A program made the position numbers and the translations under genes. This document shows positions 36,510 to 40,939 of a DNA stretch of 64,000 bases, one piece after another. Source of the stretch: Halobaculum gomorrense. GTDB taxonomy: Archaea > Halobacteriota > Halobacteria > Halobacteriales > Haloferacaceae. The notes beneath the pieces were generated by a model. That model saw nothing but the letters and a program-made list of their open reading frames with translations, ran no database searches and was not told the DNA's origin. The stretch is taken from contig NZ_FQWV01000001.1 in assembly GCF_900129775.1 (NCBI RefSeq), positions 331,780-395,779 on the forward strand, read 5' to 3'. How positions within the stretch are numbered: the first letter of the stretch is position 1; the number at the start of each line of letters is the position of its first letter.

Positions 36510-36584
36510 GGGTTGGTGGTCTAGTCCGGTTATGACGGCTCCTTCACACGGAGCAGGTCGGCGGTTCGAATCCGCCCCAACCCA
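36510..36584 (+). tRNA. tRNA-Val (CAC anticodon)
   Basis: A complete cloverleaf: acceptor GGGTTGG (36510-36516) pairs with CCAACCC (36577-36583), anticodon stem GCTCC/GGAGC with loop TTCACAC (anticodon CAC at 36545-36547), and T arm GGCGG-TTCGAAT-CCGCC (36560-36576). Discriminator base A, no encoded CCA. No intron. The last 24 bases are duplicated 135 bp downstream. Confidence 0.96.
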
Positions 36585-36613
36585 TTGTTTCGCGGCGCAT
36601 CGACGACGAGCGG
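36561..36613 (+). repeat. 53-bp direct repeat, copy 1 (in tRNA-Val 3' end)
   Basis: Starts in the T arm of tRNA-Val and continues 29 bases past the tRNA. An exact second copy begins 135 bp later. The layout is that of attachment sites used by tRNA-targeting integrases. Confidence 0.9.
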
Positions 36614-36695: not shown

Positions 36696-36748
36696 GCGGT
36701 TCGAATCCGCCCCAACCCATTGTTTCGCGGCGCATCGACGACGAGCGG
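36696..36748 (+). repeat. 53-bp direct repeat, copy 2 (partial tRNA-Val)
   Basis: Identical to 36561-36613 over all 53 bases. It holds only the T-loop/acceptor half of a tRNA, so it is not a functional tRNA gene. The 82 bp between the copies have no gene. Confidence 0.9.
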
Positions 36749-36811: not shown

Positions 36812-37348
36812 TCAGTCGTCGCGAGGGAGGTCGTCGTTCTGCCTCCCGGCGACACGGTCACGGATCTCCGCGGCGCGGCCGCGGACAGCCTCGACTCGAC
36901 GTTGGATCTGGCCGGGGCGCTTGCCACAGAAGGACGCGACGTAGTGGAGGTCGGTCCCCGACATCGTCAGCAGGTACGCGGCGACGGTGTCGCCGCCGGC
37001 CTGAACGACCTCCGGCGGGATGCCGCGGTCGCCGGTGCCGACCTCCTCGAACCCGTTCACGTCGAAGAACACGTCGACGAAGACCTCGGCGTCTTCGGCG
37101 TCCTCGAAGTCGACCACCTCGCCGTCGGGGATCTCGACACGGTACTCGGCGCCGTCGGGCGACCGCCGTTCGACGATCCGCACGTCGAGGACGTACTCCC
37201 GGTACGTCGATTCCTCGACCGTCGGGGATCTGTGTTCGCGGCCGACGCCGTTCCCGCAGTGGCCGTACGCGTCCGTGGCGTCGCTGCGCCGGTCGGTTCC
37301 GGTTCCGTCGTGGTAGTGCTGGTCGTTGGGTTGCATCGTCGGTGTCAC
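36812..37348 (-). CDS. Uncharacterised acidic protein of the PhoX/cohesin cluster
   Basis: 178 residues from a GTG that overlaps the stop of the cohesin-like gene (GTGA), or 174 from an ATG four codons later. The N-terminal 35 residues are polar and low-complexity; the middle (TYREYVLDVRIVERR then YRVEIPDGEVVDFEDAEDAEVFVDVFFDVNGFEEVG) looks like a compact alpha/beta domain; the end is a basic helix. No signal peptide is evident, so it should be cytoplasmic, unlike its two exported neighbours. Function unknown. Confidence 0.7.
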   Translation of the reverse strand: MTPTMQPNDQHYHDGTGTDRRSDATDAYGHCGNGVGREHRSPTVEESTYREYVLDVRIVERRSPDGAEYRVEIPDGEVVDFEDAEDAEVFVDVFFDVNGFEEVGTGDRGIPPEVVQAGGDTVAAYLLTMSGTDLHYVASFCGKRPGQIQRRVEAVRGRAAEIRDRVAGRQNDDLPRDD

Positions 37349-38100
37349 GTTCGTCGCCGCCCGCGAGCGAGCGCGAGCAGCGTCGCGGCCGCAAGCCCCG
37401 CGAGCACGACGGTGACCGGGAGCGCTCCGGTTGTCTCCGTCGTCGCGCCGGCGTCGACTGCGGTCGCGGCGGTCGTCGATTCGGCGGTCGCGGCGGTCGT
37501 CGATTCGGCGGTCGCGATCCCGACGGCGACCGTCGCGTTCGTCGCGGCAGGGGCGATTCGGGTACCGGAGTCGGCGTCGAACTGCACGGGATCGAGCACG
37601 AGTCGAGTCGTCCCCGAACCGTTGCCGACGATCGTCACCGTCGCGACCGTCACGTCGGTCGCACCGGCGTCGACAGCACCGTCGAGGTCCGCCGCCTCCA
37701 GCGCGAGGCCACCGTCCGTCGTGCGCTCCGGTGGCGTCGTGAGCCCGAAGGCGTCCGGGTAGCTCGCGTTCGCGATCCGGGCGACTCCGGACCCTGAGAG
37801 CGACACCTCGAAGTAGTACCCCGAGAGCCCCTCCGGAACGCTAGTCAGGACGATCTCGACGGTCGTTCGACCGTCAGTGTCGATGCGGATCGGATCTGTC
37901 GCGGGCCGAAGCGACGGGTTCGGTCGGATCGCGTCGGCCCCGGGCCCGGCATCGTCGACCGCGAGTCCGACGGCCTCGGTGCCGCTGTCGACGTGCGCGT
38001 CCACCGCGACGACGCCGTGGCCCGCTGCGGTCAGACACGCTGCCACCAGCGCGACCGCGAGGACGACGCGACCGGTTCGTTCTGTGAGTCGGTAGGTCAT
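37345..38100 (-). CDS. Membrane-anchored cohesin-like protein
   Basis: 251 residues. An N-terminal Sec-type signal/hydrophobic segment (VVLAVALVAACLTAAGHGVVAV), then a cohesin-like beta domain at about residues 50-205: GRTTVEIVLTSVPEGLSGYYFEVSLSG, then VARIANASYP, then TDVTVATVTIVGNGSGTTRLVLD. A Thr/Ala linker with two 8-residue repeats (ATAESTTA) leads to a C-terminal membrane helix (LPVTVVLAGLAAATLLAL) with an Arg tail. It should display its beta domain on the cell surface. The same gene order holds a dockerin-bearing PhoX protein just upstream, suggesting a partner. The stop overlaps the next gene. Confidence 0.75.
   Translation of the reverse strand: MTYRLTERTGRVVLAVALVAACLTAAGHGVVAVDAHVDSGTEAVGLAVDDAGPGADAIRPNPSLRPATDPIRIDTDGRTTVEIVLTSVPEGLSGYYFEVSLSGSGVARIANASYPDAFGLTTPPERTTDGGLALEAADLDGAVDAGATDVTVATVTIVGNGSGTTRLVLDPVQFDADSGTRIAPAATNATVAVGIATAESTTAATAESTTAATAVDAGATTETTGALPVTVVLAGLAAATLLALARGRRRT
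37461..37516. repeat. 24-bp tandem repeat in the linker of the cohesin-like gene
   Basis: Two exact 24-bp units (37461-37484 and 37485-37508) plus eight bases of a third. They encode the Ala/Thr/Ser linker before the membrane anchor and give a locus able to change length by slippage. Confidence 0.85.
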
Positions 38101-38210
38101 GAAATGAGAGTGGTTGTGGTGGTAACGGCAGTTGTCGTGACGGACGGCGTCGGGGTCTGCGGGAGCAGTTCGTCGCCGCCCGCCGACGGCGGCCCGCCCG
38201 GGCCGGTCGC

Positions 38211-40898
38211 TCAGTTGACCTCCTCGTACAGGTCGACCACGTCGTCGAAGTCGAGCTGGCCGTTGTCGTTGAAGTCGTACGCCCACTTGTTGAGGCGGAC
38301 GCTGTCGCCGTCGAAGTTGCGGAACAGCGCCGTCACGTCGGCGTAGTCGAGGCGACCGTTGCCGTTCACGTCGGCGTAGTCGCCGTCGCCGTCGAGGTCG
38401 CGGGGGGCGTTCCCGCCGGCGACCGCCGGCGGACCGGTGACGACGAGCCCGGCTCGGCCCTCCGCGTCGATGGCGTCGCCGTCCTCGTCGTCCATCGCCT
38501 GCACCGTCACATCGATGTCCGCGGTGCCCGAGCCGGTCCCGCGCACCGTCAGCGTCGCGAGCGTCACGTCGCGGCCGCCCTGCCCGACGGTCTCGGTCGC
38601 ATCCGTCACCTGCAGGGTCGCCGTCGAGCCGTCGTCGCTGATCGCGCGCTTCGTCAGCGCGATCTCCTCGGGGAAGGAGACGCTCTCGATCGACGCTACC
38701 TCGGGATCGGAGACGACGAGCTTCACCCGCGCGCCCGAGAATCCCGCCGGGAGCGACGACGCCGTCACGTCGAGCGTGCCGGTCGTCCCGTTGCGGACGG
38801 CGACCGCGCCGGCGTCGACCATGACGTTGGGCTGGTACACCCACATGCAGTCGTTCTTGAACGAGCGGGCGAGCTGGTCGGCGTCCTCACAGCAGAGGAC
38901 GCGCCCGTCGTTCATCACGTACACGTTGTCGATGTTGAGCGGGGCCTGGTCGGCGACCTCGGTGGAGTCACTGCCGTCGAAACCGACGACGACCGGTTCG
39001 AGGCGCGTGATGTCGTAGTCGCGCTTCAACTGGCCCCGGTAGACGACGCCCCCGTCGACGCGGTCCATTCGGAGGTCACCCTCGTCGTCGGACAGGGCGT
39101 CGTTGTACTCGGCGAGCCCGAAGTAGACGAAGTCGCCCGGCCCGGCCCCCGCGACGCTGTCGACGCCCTCCGCCTTGTTGAACTCGATCGAGGCGCCGAT
39201 CTCCTTGGCGGCCGCCCGCGTCTCCAGGAACGGCACCTTCCGCAGCTCCTCGTCGACGTCCTCCGGGCCGCGTTCCTCGTACTGCTCGGCCCACTCGACG
39301 ATCTCCTCGTCGGTGATGTAGTTCCGGTTGCCGTTCTCGATGACTTCGCGGTCGGCCTCCTCGATGGCCGCGTCGAGGTCATCCCGCCAGTCGGTCTCCG
39401 CGTGGGTCTCCAGGTAGTCGACCTGCGTGATCCCGTCGTACTCGGCGATCCACGACTCGACCTCGCGGTTCGTGGCGTGGCCGAGCTCGATCCACTCGAT
39501 GTCCAGCGGGACGTTCGCCGGCGACCGATCCTTCGCGGCCGACGCGTTCGTGATCTTCGGGGCGTACAGCGTCCCCGACAGGTCCATCGGGTCGTCGTAG
39601 CCGTCGATGAGCTCGTCGGCGACGAACTTGTAGATCCCCTTGGCGTCGCCGTCGCTGGTCTCGTACACCGTCCGTCGGTCGCCGACGATGTCGGCCATCT
39701 CCCAGGCTCCCCGGCCCATCACGTAGTACTTCACCGGCGTCGGCGGGTCGGCCGCCGGGTCGCGGAAGTCGACGTGGTACCCCTGCCTGTAGGGGTTGGG
39801 GTAGCCCTCGCCGATCGGCTCGGTCGTGTTTGTCCCCTCCGCCTCGGCGCCCGTGCCGTTCGCGTCGGGCTCTGCGGTCGCCTCGTCGAAGTTCCGCTGG
39901 TCGACCGGCTCCGCGCCGTTGTAATACGCCAGCAGTTCGACGCCCGAGAGCGCCCAGTAGCCCTGGACGTACCAGCTCTGGAAGTCCTCGTCCGCCTCAG
40001 CGTAGCTGGCGACTGCGCTCTGTATCTCCGTGGGGTTGGGCCGGTTCCAGAACGGTCGAGCCCCCCGGAGCCCCTGCCCGGTGCCCTTCTCGAGGATGTC
40101 GCTCACGGTCGCGGTGAGCGAGACCGTCGGGTGGGCGTACTCCTCCTCCGAGGAGATCATCGTCCCCCACGGGGTGAGCTCGCCGGCGCAGTTGATCCGC
40201 GTCCCCTGGAGCGCGCGAAGCGGCTCCGTGTTCGCGAGGTTGATGGCGTTCTCGAGGTCGGCCTCCCACTCGCCGTCCTCGGTCCGGCTGATGGGGATCC
40301 GCGTGACGTTCCCCGGGCTCGTCTCGAAGTTCGTGTACAGCAGCCCTTCGGTCCCATCTTCGTTCGTCGGGATAAACTGGTTGCAGTCAGGCGTGTACCC
40401 CGGCTCGGAGTACCGCGATCCGGCGAACCGATCGATCGGAACGCCGTCGGGCGTCTCCGGCACGCCGAGCTGTTCGGCGCCGCCGTTGATCTCGTCTTCC
40501 TGCTGGGCGAGGAAGACGTACTCACCGTCGCTGACGCGGACCCGGGACTGTTGCTCGTTCGTCGTCGGGATCGGCAGCTCCGCGAAGTCGTCGTTGCTCC
40601 CGTCGAACCGGAAGTCGAACCCGCTAACGTACCCGATGCCGCCCCGGGAGAACTCCCCAGGATTGTCGCGGCTCGGGTGCTGGTGGCTGAACAGCAGCGT
40701 GCCGTCGTCGAAGACGAACGGACCCGTCACCTCCGCCCCCAGCGATGTCGTCGCGAATCGCTTGATGCTCCCTCTCGCGCTCGGTGCGCCGACGGTGTCG
40801 GCGTCGGCTGCGGCAGCCACGCCCGAGCTCGCCGCTCCCGCTCCCACTGCTGCGGCGACTGATGTCTTCATCAATCGCCGTCTGGATAGGTCGACCAT
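38211..40898 (-). CDS. Tat-exported PhoX-like phosphatase with cohesin-like and dockerin modules
   Basis: 895 residues. The twin-arginine signal (SRRRLMKTSVAAAVGAGAAS) sends it out folded. Residues about 40-690 belong to the PhoX/DUF839 family, alkaline phosphatases that use Ca and Fe; typical segments are PWGTMISSEE, and NCAGELTPWG before it. A cohesin-like beta domain follows (about 695-825: LDVTASSLPAGFSGARVKLVVSD, VTLATLTVRGTGSGTADIDV). The C-terminus is a dockerin with two Ca-binding loops, DVNGNGRLDYAD (843-854) and DFNDNGQLDFDD (875-886). The architecture suggests assembly with a cohesin partner at the surface. Whether phosphatase activity is kept cannot be told. Confidence 0.85.
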   Translation of the reverse strand: MVDLSRRRLMKTSVAAAVGAGAASSGVAAAADADTVGAPSARGSIKRFATTSLGAEVTGPFVFDDGTLLFSHQHPSRDNPGEFSRGGIGYVSGFDFRFDGSNDDFAELPIPTTNEQQSRVRVSDGEYVFLAQQEDEINGGAEQLGVPETPDGVPIDRFAGSRYSEPGYTPDCNQFIPTNEDGTEGLLYTNFETSPGNVTRIPISRTEDGEWEADLENAINLANTEPLRALQGTRINCAGELTPWGTMISSEEEYAHPTVSLTATVSDILEKGTGQGLRGARPFWNRPNPTEIQSAVASYAEADEDFQSWYVQGYWALSGVELLAYYNGAEPVDQRNFDEATAEPDANGTGAEAEGTNTTEPIGEGYPNPYRQGYHVDFRDPAADPPTPVKYYVMGRGAWEMADIVGDRRTVYETSDGDAKGIYKFVADELIDGYDDPMDLSGTLYAPKITNASAAKDRSPANVPLDIEWIELGHATNREVESWIAEYDGITQVDYLETHAETDWRDDLDAAIEEADREVIENGNRNYITDEEIVEWAEQYEERGPEDVDEELRKVPFLETRAAAKEIGASIEFNKAEGVDSVAGAGPGDFVYFGLAEYNDALSDDEGDLRMDRVDGGVVYRGQLKRDYDITRLEPVVVGFDGSDSTEVADQAPLNIDNVYVMNDGRVLCCEDADQLARSFKNDCMWVYQPNVMVDAGAVAVRNGTTGTLDVTASSLPAGFSGARVKLVVSDPEVASIESVSFPEEIALTKRAISDDGSTATLQVTDATETVGQGGRDVTLATLTVRGTGSGTADIDVTVQAMDDEDGDAIDAEGRAGLVVTGPPAVAGGNAPRDLDGDGDYADVNGNGRLDYADVTALFRNFDGDSVRLNKWAYDFNDNGQLDFDDVVDLYEEVN

Positions 40899-40931
40899 GC
40901 AAGTTCGCGATCGATGACATGCCTGAAAGCG

Positions 40932-40939
40932 TTTTATAT
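40932..40939 (-). promoter_or_regulatory. TATA box of the PhoX gene
   Basis: ATATAAAA on the minus strand, centred 37 nt before the ATG, in an AT-rich patch of otherwise G+C-rich DNA. The best consensus match of the window. Confidence 0.6.

Follow-up and report, generated by a model that had tools for sequence, protein, structure and literature searches.

Is the dockerin at the end of an exported archaeal phosphatase a partner for the cohesin encoded next to it? The locus that raises this question lies in Halobaculum gomorrense (assembly GCF_900129775.1, contig NZ_FQWV01000001.1, positions 331,780–395,779); we refer to these 64,000 nucleotides as the window, position 1 being its first letter. 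Three open reading frames (ORFs) on the minus strand are confirmed: the gene of a PhoX-family phosphatase (38211–40898), the gene of a membrane-anchored cohesin (37345–38100), and a third gene (36812–37348). Cohesin module identity, gene layout, restricted gene content, and co-conservation make it quite probable that PhoX is held at the outer face of the membrane by Ca-dependent docking onto its neighbour's cohesin.

The gene content of the genome, which is 99.89% complete, limits the choice of partners. A haloarchaeal dockerin profile detects a single dockerin genome-wide (E 4e-29) and no second up to E 1. Cohesins number two in a profile search (E 3e-44 and 3e-42; next match, E 0.37), and there is one PhoX. 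The sole dockerin, both cohesins, and the sole PhoX all lie within the PhoX gene and the adjoining cohesin gene. Because the genome holds one dockerin and two cohesins, the only candidate cohesin partners of the dockerin are the neighbour's cohesin and the in-chain cohesin of PhoX. The Pfam model Dockerin_1 finds no match at E 0.001 in this genome; the haloarchaeal profile does detect the window dockerin. The features of the two genes are as follows.

38211–40898, minus strand: gene of a PhoX-family phosphatase of 895 residues, with a Tat-like signal (twin-arginine translocation), PhoX domain, cohesin module, and dockerin (ORF; PF05787)
40806–40898, minus strand: putative Tat-type signal peptide, SRRRLMK (residues 5–11) and hydrophobic stretch 13–31 (sequence, hydropathy, relatives)
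38829–40796, minus strand: PhoX catalytic region, residues 35–690 (PF05787; alignment with Pseudomonas fluorescens PhoX)
38403–38831, minus strand: cohesin-fold module of PhoX, residues 690–832 (AlphaFold model; cohesin matches)
38214–38399, minus strand: dockerin, residues 834–895 (Pfam; profile alignment; conserved columns)
38337–38372, minus strand: dockerin Ca-binding loop 1, DVNGNGRLDYAD, residues 843–854 (sequence; conserved columns)
38241–38276, minus strand: dockerin Ca-binding loop 2, DFNDNGQLDFDD, residues 875–886 (sequence; conserved columns)
37345–38100, minus strand: gene of the membrane-anchored cohesin, 251 residues, ATG at 38100 (ORF; orthologues)
37504–37920, minus strand: cohesin module of the anchor protein, residues 61–199 (AlphaFold model; PDB matches)
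37366–37422, minus strand: C-terminal membrane helix LPVTVVLAGLAAATLLALA, followed by RGRRRT (hydropathy 2.25)

Cohesin modules, dockerin, and phosphatase domain

The initial annotation described a PhoX-like protein with a cohesin-like domain and then dockerin loops at residues 843–854 and 875–886, and the loops are exactly where it placed them. It also gave the next gene a cohesin-like domain and a C-terminal membrane anchor, and this description holds as well. The module is modelled by AlphaFold with a cohesin fold at a predicted local distance difference test score (pLDDT) of 92, and hydropathy marks two hydrophobic segments, an N-terminal one at residues 13–31 and a C-terminal one at residues 227–245 with RGRRRT after it. 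Orthologues of about 240 residues occupy the same place in relatives. The window anchor ends in a plain C-terminal helix and has no match to PGF-CTERM; this signal scores above its cut-off in several other anchors, L015 and L017 (orthologues of the window anchor) and L126.

When the anchor module is searched against the PDB with Foldseek, the top 43 rows are all cohesins or cohesin-containing chains. Cohesins also head the list for the PhoX module, so that solved structures matching the two modules are almost all cohesins. VIA-align scores reach Z 15.2 (2vo8) for the anchor module, which also matches 2jh2 (Z 15.0) and the Archaeoglobus fulgidus cohesin 2xdh (Z 14.8); for the PhoX module they reach Z 16.1 (6kgc), with 2xdh at Z 15.3. 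By their predicted structures, both beta modules have a cohesin fold, and the possibility, raised with the initial annotation, that they are unrelated to cohesins does not hold. The two modules are homologous to each other (E 1.8e-8). Their identity to solved cohesins is about 10–17%, beneath the reach of sequence profiles. When the cohesin alignment serves as a profile query against the PDB, no cohesin is recovered, the divergence being too great. Pfam detects a cohesin in neither module; therefore, sequence annotation alone would overlook both.

Residues 841–886 of PhoX match EF-hand_7 (6e-5) and Dockerin_1 (0.037). The acidic Ca positions of both loops are conserved in 26 haloarchaeal relatives, and the two Ca-binding loop–helix repeats lie at the spacing of a type I dockerin. 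The haloarchaeal dockerin profile can be aligned to the dockerin of CelS (E 7e-4), and relatives inside this profile exceed the Pfam cut-off for Dockerin_1. The identity of the dockerin rests on sequence, not on structure. Directly before loop 1, an extra DxDxDG motif (residues 834–843, positions 38370–38399) has D1, D3, D5, and G6 invariant in the 26 haloarchaeal dockerins. This motif is a possible third Ca site.

The PhoX domain matches PF05787 above the Pfam cut-off (E 2.4e-21), and its residue Cys237, which corresponds in the alignment to Cys179 of the P. fluorescens enzyme, does not vary among 12 haloarchaeal relatives. With the domain and the metal-site Cys both present, the protein is predicted to be a PhoX. 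The region around Cys179 and the PhoX domain are common to the window protein and the bacterial enzyme (3zwu), but the two are distant (E 6e-7 in a single-sequence search, 1.9e-11 with a profile), and the 3zwu chain, unlike window PhoX, has no cohesin or dockerin in the match. In the putative Tat signal, SRRRLMK is present and R6, R7, and L9 are kept in relatives; the score for TIGR01409 is 11.7 bits, below the cut-off of 16.7. A TATA-box-like stretch, ATATAAAACG, lies at 40930–40939 on the minus strand, 32–41 nucleotides before the PhoX start codon. A scan for bacterial sigma-70 promoters, a model unsuited to archaea, finds no match above chance.

Recurrence of the pair and its possible readings

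The pair recurs in other haloarchaea, as the initial annotation had proposed could be checked. We used a family sample of 148 Haloferacaceae genomes and a class sample of 391 genomes. Dockerins are present in 63 of the 148 family genomes, cohesins in 60, and, by comparison of the two lists, both in 57. For 61 of the 120 listed dockerins, the 3 kb downstream contain a separate cohesin ORF in the same orientation, mostly 120–420 bp away; for 2 it is upstream. From the number of cohesins per genome, 0.12 such adjacencies would be expected by chance. The 47 PhoX genes of the family fall into 17 with an in-chain cohesin, a dockerin, and a separate cohesin, 4 that have the first two but no separate cohesin nearby, 2 with an in-chain cohesin only, and 24 that are plain. 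A separate cohesin is thus found beside 17 of the 21 dockerin-bearing PhoX genes and none of the 26 dockerin-less ones (Fisher's exact test, 2e-9, uncorrected for shared ancestry).

Outside the family, where PhoX identity is inferred from ORF length, a separate cohesin ORF lies 116–314 bp downstream of 58 of the 70 PhoX-length dockerin ORFs. Among the 12 exceptions are four that come first in a tandem pair, the second copy of which is followed by a separate cohesin. In G264, G273, G342, and G389, two tandem PhoX-length dockerin ORFs lie about 3 kb apart, with one separate cohesin among the matches listed. Dockerins of the haloarchaeal profile occur in 164 of the 391 class genomes. A cohesin–dockerin pair serving PhoX is therefore supported by gene content, adjacency, and loss patterns, which all fit, but its description as an uncommon use does not apply among haloarchaea, where it is not rare.

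From these data we infer dockerin–cohesin binding, its Ca dependence, a surface location, phosphatase activity, and a benefit for phosphate uptake. PhoX would be exported folded via its Tat-like signal, and its C-terminal dockerin would bind Ca outside the cell. The neighbour would be exported too, remain attached to the cytoplasmic membrane through its C-terminal helix, and expose its cohesin at the outer face. Docking of the dockerin on the anchor cohesin would then retain the phosphatase at the cell surface under the surface layer (S-layer), so that phosphate is released close to uptake systems. The in-chain cohesin-fold module before the dockerin is probably a spacer or support, by analogy with the X module before type II dockerins.

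Several observations weigh against docking. The window dockerin scores 14.6 bits for Pfam Dockerin_1, compared with a curated cut-off of 22.9, and the dockerin part of the AlphaFold model has a pLDDT under about 60. The co-occurrence statistics ignore shared ancestry, and linked genes are co-inherited anyway. Two genomes (G018 and G060) have PhoX–cohesin–dockerin without any second cohesin (E ≤ 1e-5), and in G042 the only cohesins are its two in-chain ones. In addition, the sheet through which cohesins contact dockerin in known complexes shows no excess conservation in anchor cohesins over in-chain ones (p = 1.0).

Position 10 of the two loops divides haloarchaeal dockerins into two classes: an aromatic residue there marks the PhoX class, an aliphatic one a second class. 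Both loops are aromatic in 35 dockerins, neither is in 20, and 4 are mixed (1 + 3). Dual-binding-mode cellulosomal dockerins show such two-fold symmetry of loop residues. The cohesin tree splits along the same two classes, with one exception (L130, both labels, on the aliphatic side). At position 75 on strand 6 (numbering of model mb7fd01dc77a1), the 21 anchor cohesins all have Glu and the paired in-chain cohesins have Arg or Lys, a charge swap. L130 (570–4422) and L131 (700–9510) each encode, in a row, a dockerin protein, a protein combining multiple cohesins with a dockerin, and a single-cohesin protein; these gene rows are scaffoldin-like. Aliphatic dockerins are carried by PKD, beta-helix, PQQ, malectin, and 5'-nucleotidase proteins, often with a downstream cohesin of their own. 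Aromatic dockerins also occur on PhoD (L113, L115, L134, and L135), on choice_anch_I proteins (L112, L116, L132, and L133), and on a 5'-nucleotidase (L114); all of these lie in genomes that have the PhoX anchor, and none has an adjacent anchor itself.

These last proteins suggest an extension compatible with the docking model, in which one membrane cohesin serves several phosphatases (a "phosphatasome" of PhoX, PhoD, choice-of-anchor-I, and 5'-nucleotidase). It concerns related genomes, not the window genome. G048, with two aromatic-class dockerins and one separate cohesin, and the four genomes in which a tandem pair of PhoX-length dockerin ORFs has one separate cohesin among the matches listed point the same way, but G083 and G064 hold further cohesin genes. 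We regard this extension as tentative, its chances falling slightly short of even.

A different reading is that the PhoX dockerin pairs with the in-chain cohesin of a second PhoX molecule or of its own chain, giving oligomers or a closed form, and that the membrane cohesin only caps or anchors the chain. Cohesin and dockerin share one chain in 70 of the 120 dockerin proteins. Because some genomes (G018 and G060) have PhoX–cohesin–dockerin and no separate cohesin, self-association is live as an alternative or an addition to docking. However, several dockerin proteins without an in-chain cohesin have a separate one downstream (e.g., L129 and L131). Moreover, loop-1 position 10 is Tyr in 22 of the 22 PhoX dockerins with an adjacent anchor cohesin, but has changed in four of the five without one (Gly in L002 and L004, His in L003, Arg in L016; L042 keeps Tyr), as if a contact were relaxed, although these changes are few independent events, L002 and L004 being one species and L016 of the same genus. 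We consider self-assembly unlikely. In another reading, the dockerin is a mere Ca-binding or substrate- or surface-binding tail with no cohesin pairing, as some authors assume for haloarchaeal glycosidases in a statement on the type I dockerin of mannanases (PMC10963439) and as its weak Pfam score would allow. This is very improbable: the dockerin is closely linked to, and lost together with, an actual cohesin gene, the beta modules have the cohesin fold, and the genome contains one dockerin and two cohesins.

The third gene and the flanking DNA

The third gene had been described as translationally coupled to the cohesin gene.

36812–37348, minus strand: third gene, 178 residues from GTG (alternative ATG at 37336), companion of PhoX

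Its GTG does overlap the cohesin stop codon (GTGA). However, an in-frame ATG follows four codons later, the orthologues begin further inside the reading frame, and most relatives show no overlap between the two genes; the overlap stands, but coupling is therefore uncertain. All 47 PhoX genes have the third gene within 3.5 kb, be it upstream, downstream, or in divergent orientation, and this holds even for the 24 without cohesin or dockerin, indicating that it is a companion of PhoX and not of the cohesin. Its only strong orphan (G062) adjoins a broken PhoX. This decayed locus (L136, G062:C1:1826500-1831000) retains the N-terminal 103 residues of PhoX, a piece of the dockerin in a different open frame (C1:1828615-1828800), and the complete third gene. 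The third protein is acidic, with no signal peptide or membrane segment found and no relative in Pfam, NCBIfam, or the PDB. At a guess, it may have a cytoplasmic role, e.g., in metalloenzyme maturation before export.

Beside the PhoX cassette, a tRNA-Val(CAC) gene occupies 36510–36584. Its 3' end and flank (30 nucleotides, 36564–36593) recur as an exact copy 135 bp downstream at 36699–36728. PhoX is present in 0 of the 10 genus-mates searched. The repeat and the absence from genus-mates resemble what a remnant attachment site and acquisition of the cassette would leave.

Known cohesin–dockerin systems and the role of the pair

The AF2375/AF2376 pair of A. fulgidus, a non-cellulolytic archaeon, is likewise non-cellulosomal and has the same cohesin fold (2xdh, Z 14.8 and 15.3). 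Its genome is said to hold one dockerin and two cohesins, and both cohesins reportedly bind the single dockerin in the work of Voronov-Goldman and co-workers of 2011. Unlike this pair, the Halobaculum anchor has a membrane helix, and the Halobaculum pair recurs in many genomes. Its cargo is PhoX; the parts of the A. fulgidus description consulted name no phosphatase cargo. AfuCoh76 and AfuDoc75 bind each other (PMC9705933). Archaeal non-cellulosomal modules have been known since 1999, when the title of Bayer 1999 called the A. fulgidus pair an "enigmatic vestige" (as cited in PMC9012536). That paper reports many cohesin and dockerin proteins in anaerobic methanotrophic (ANME) archaea, also non-cellulosomal, with many cargo types and a proposed surface attachment. 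These are mostly ABC solute-binding, multi-cohesin, and S-layer proteins, and no phosphatase–anchor gene pair is described in the section consulted.

In cellulosomes, where the X-module–dockerin of the scaffoldin docks on an anchoring cohesin, the dockerin sits on the exported protein and the cohesin on the cell-bound one, as in Halobaculum. An extra beta module before the dockerin and two-fold symmetric loop residues are also common to both. However, the Halobaculum system has a single cohesin per anchor, no scaffoldin, and no cellulose-binding module, and a phosphatase replaces the glycosidase at a high-salt archaeal surface. With two cohesins, one per protein, and PhoX as cargo, it lacks the multi-cohesin scaffoldin and the plant-polysaccharide enzymes that define a cellulosome.

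Dockerins of haloarchaea are on record for glycosidases, where they have been taken as substrate-binding (PMC10963439; PMC13260240). We found no report of a phosphatase–anchor pair or of haloarchaeal cohesins in the literature searched; the main survey (Peer 2009) was not covered, and a prior mention there is possible. Archaeal cohesin–dockerin pairs are already known; the use for anchoring a phosphatase would be new. By analogy with the cellulosome, the PhoX–anchor pair recurring across haloarchaea suggests a surface enzyme-docking system for obtaining phosphate. More broadly, haloarchaea may have a widespread non-cellulosomal system in which phosphorus-scavenging enzymes (PhoX, PhoD, 5'-nucleotidase, and choice-of-anchor-I) share one membrane cohesin, aromatic and aliphatic codes define separate surface complexes, and some genomes add scaffoldin-like adaptors, a picture we hold with a little less than even confidence.

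The phosphatase–anchor pair speaks against haloarchaeal dockerins being substrate-binding domains, and may be a source of salt-tolerant binding pairs for enzyme display. The docking role is testable in culturable haloarchaea. The conserved phosphatase-plus-anchor pair would give the archaeal modules a concrete job, that of keeping nutrient-scavenging enzymes at the cell surface.

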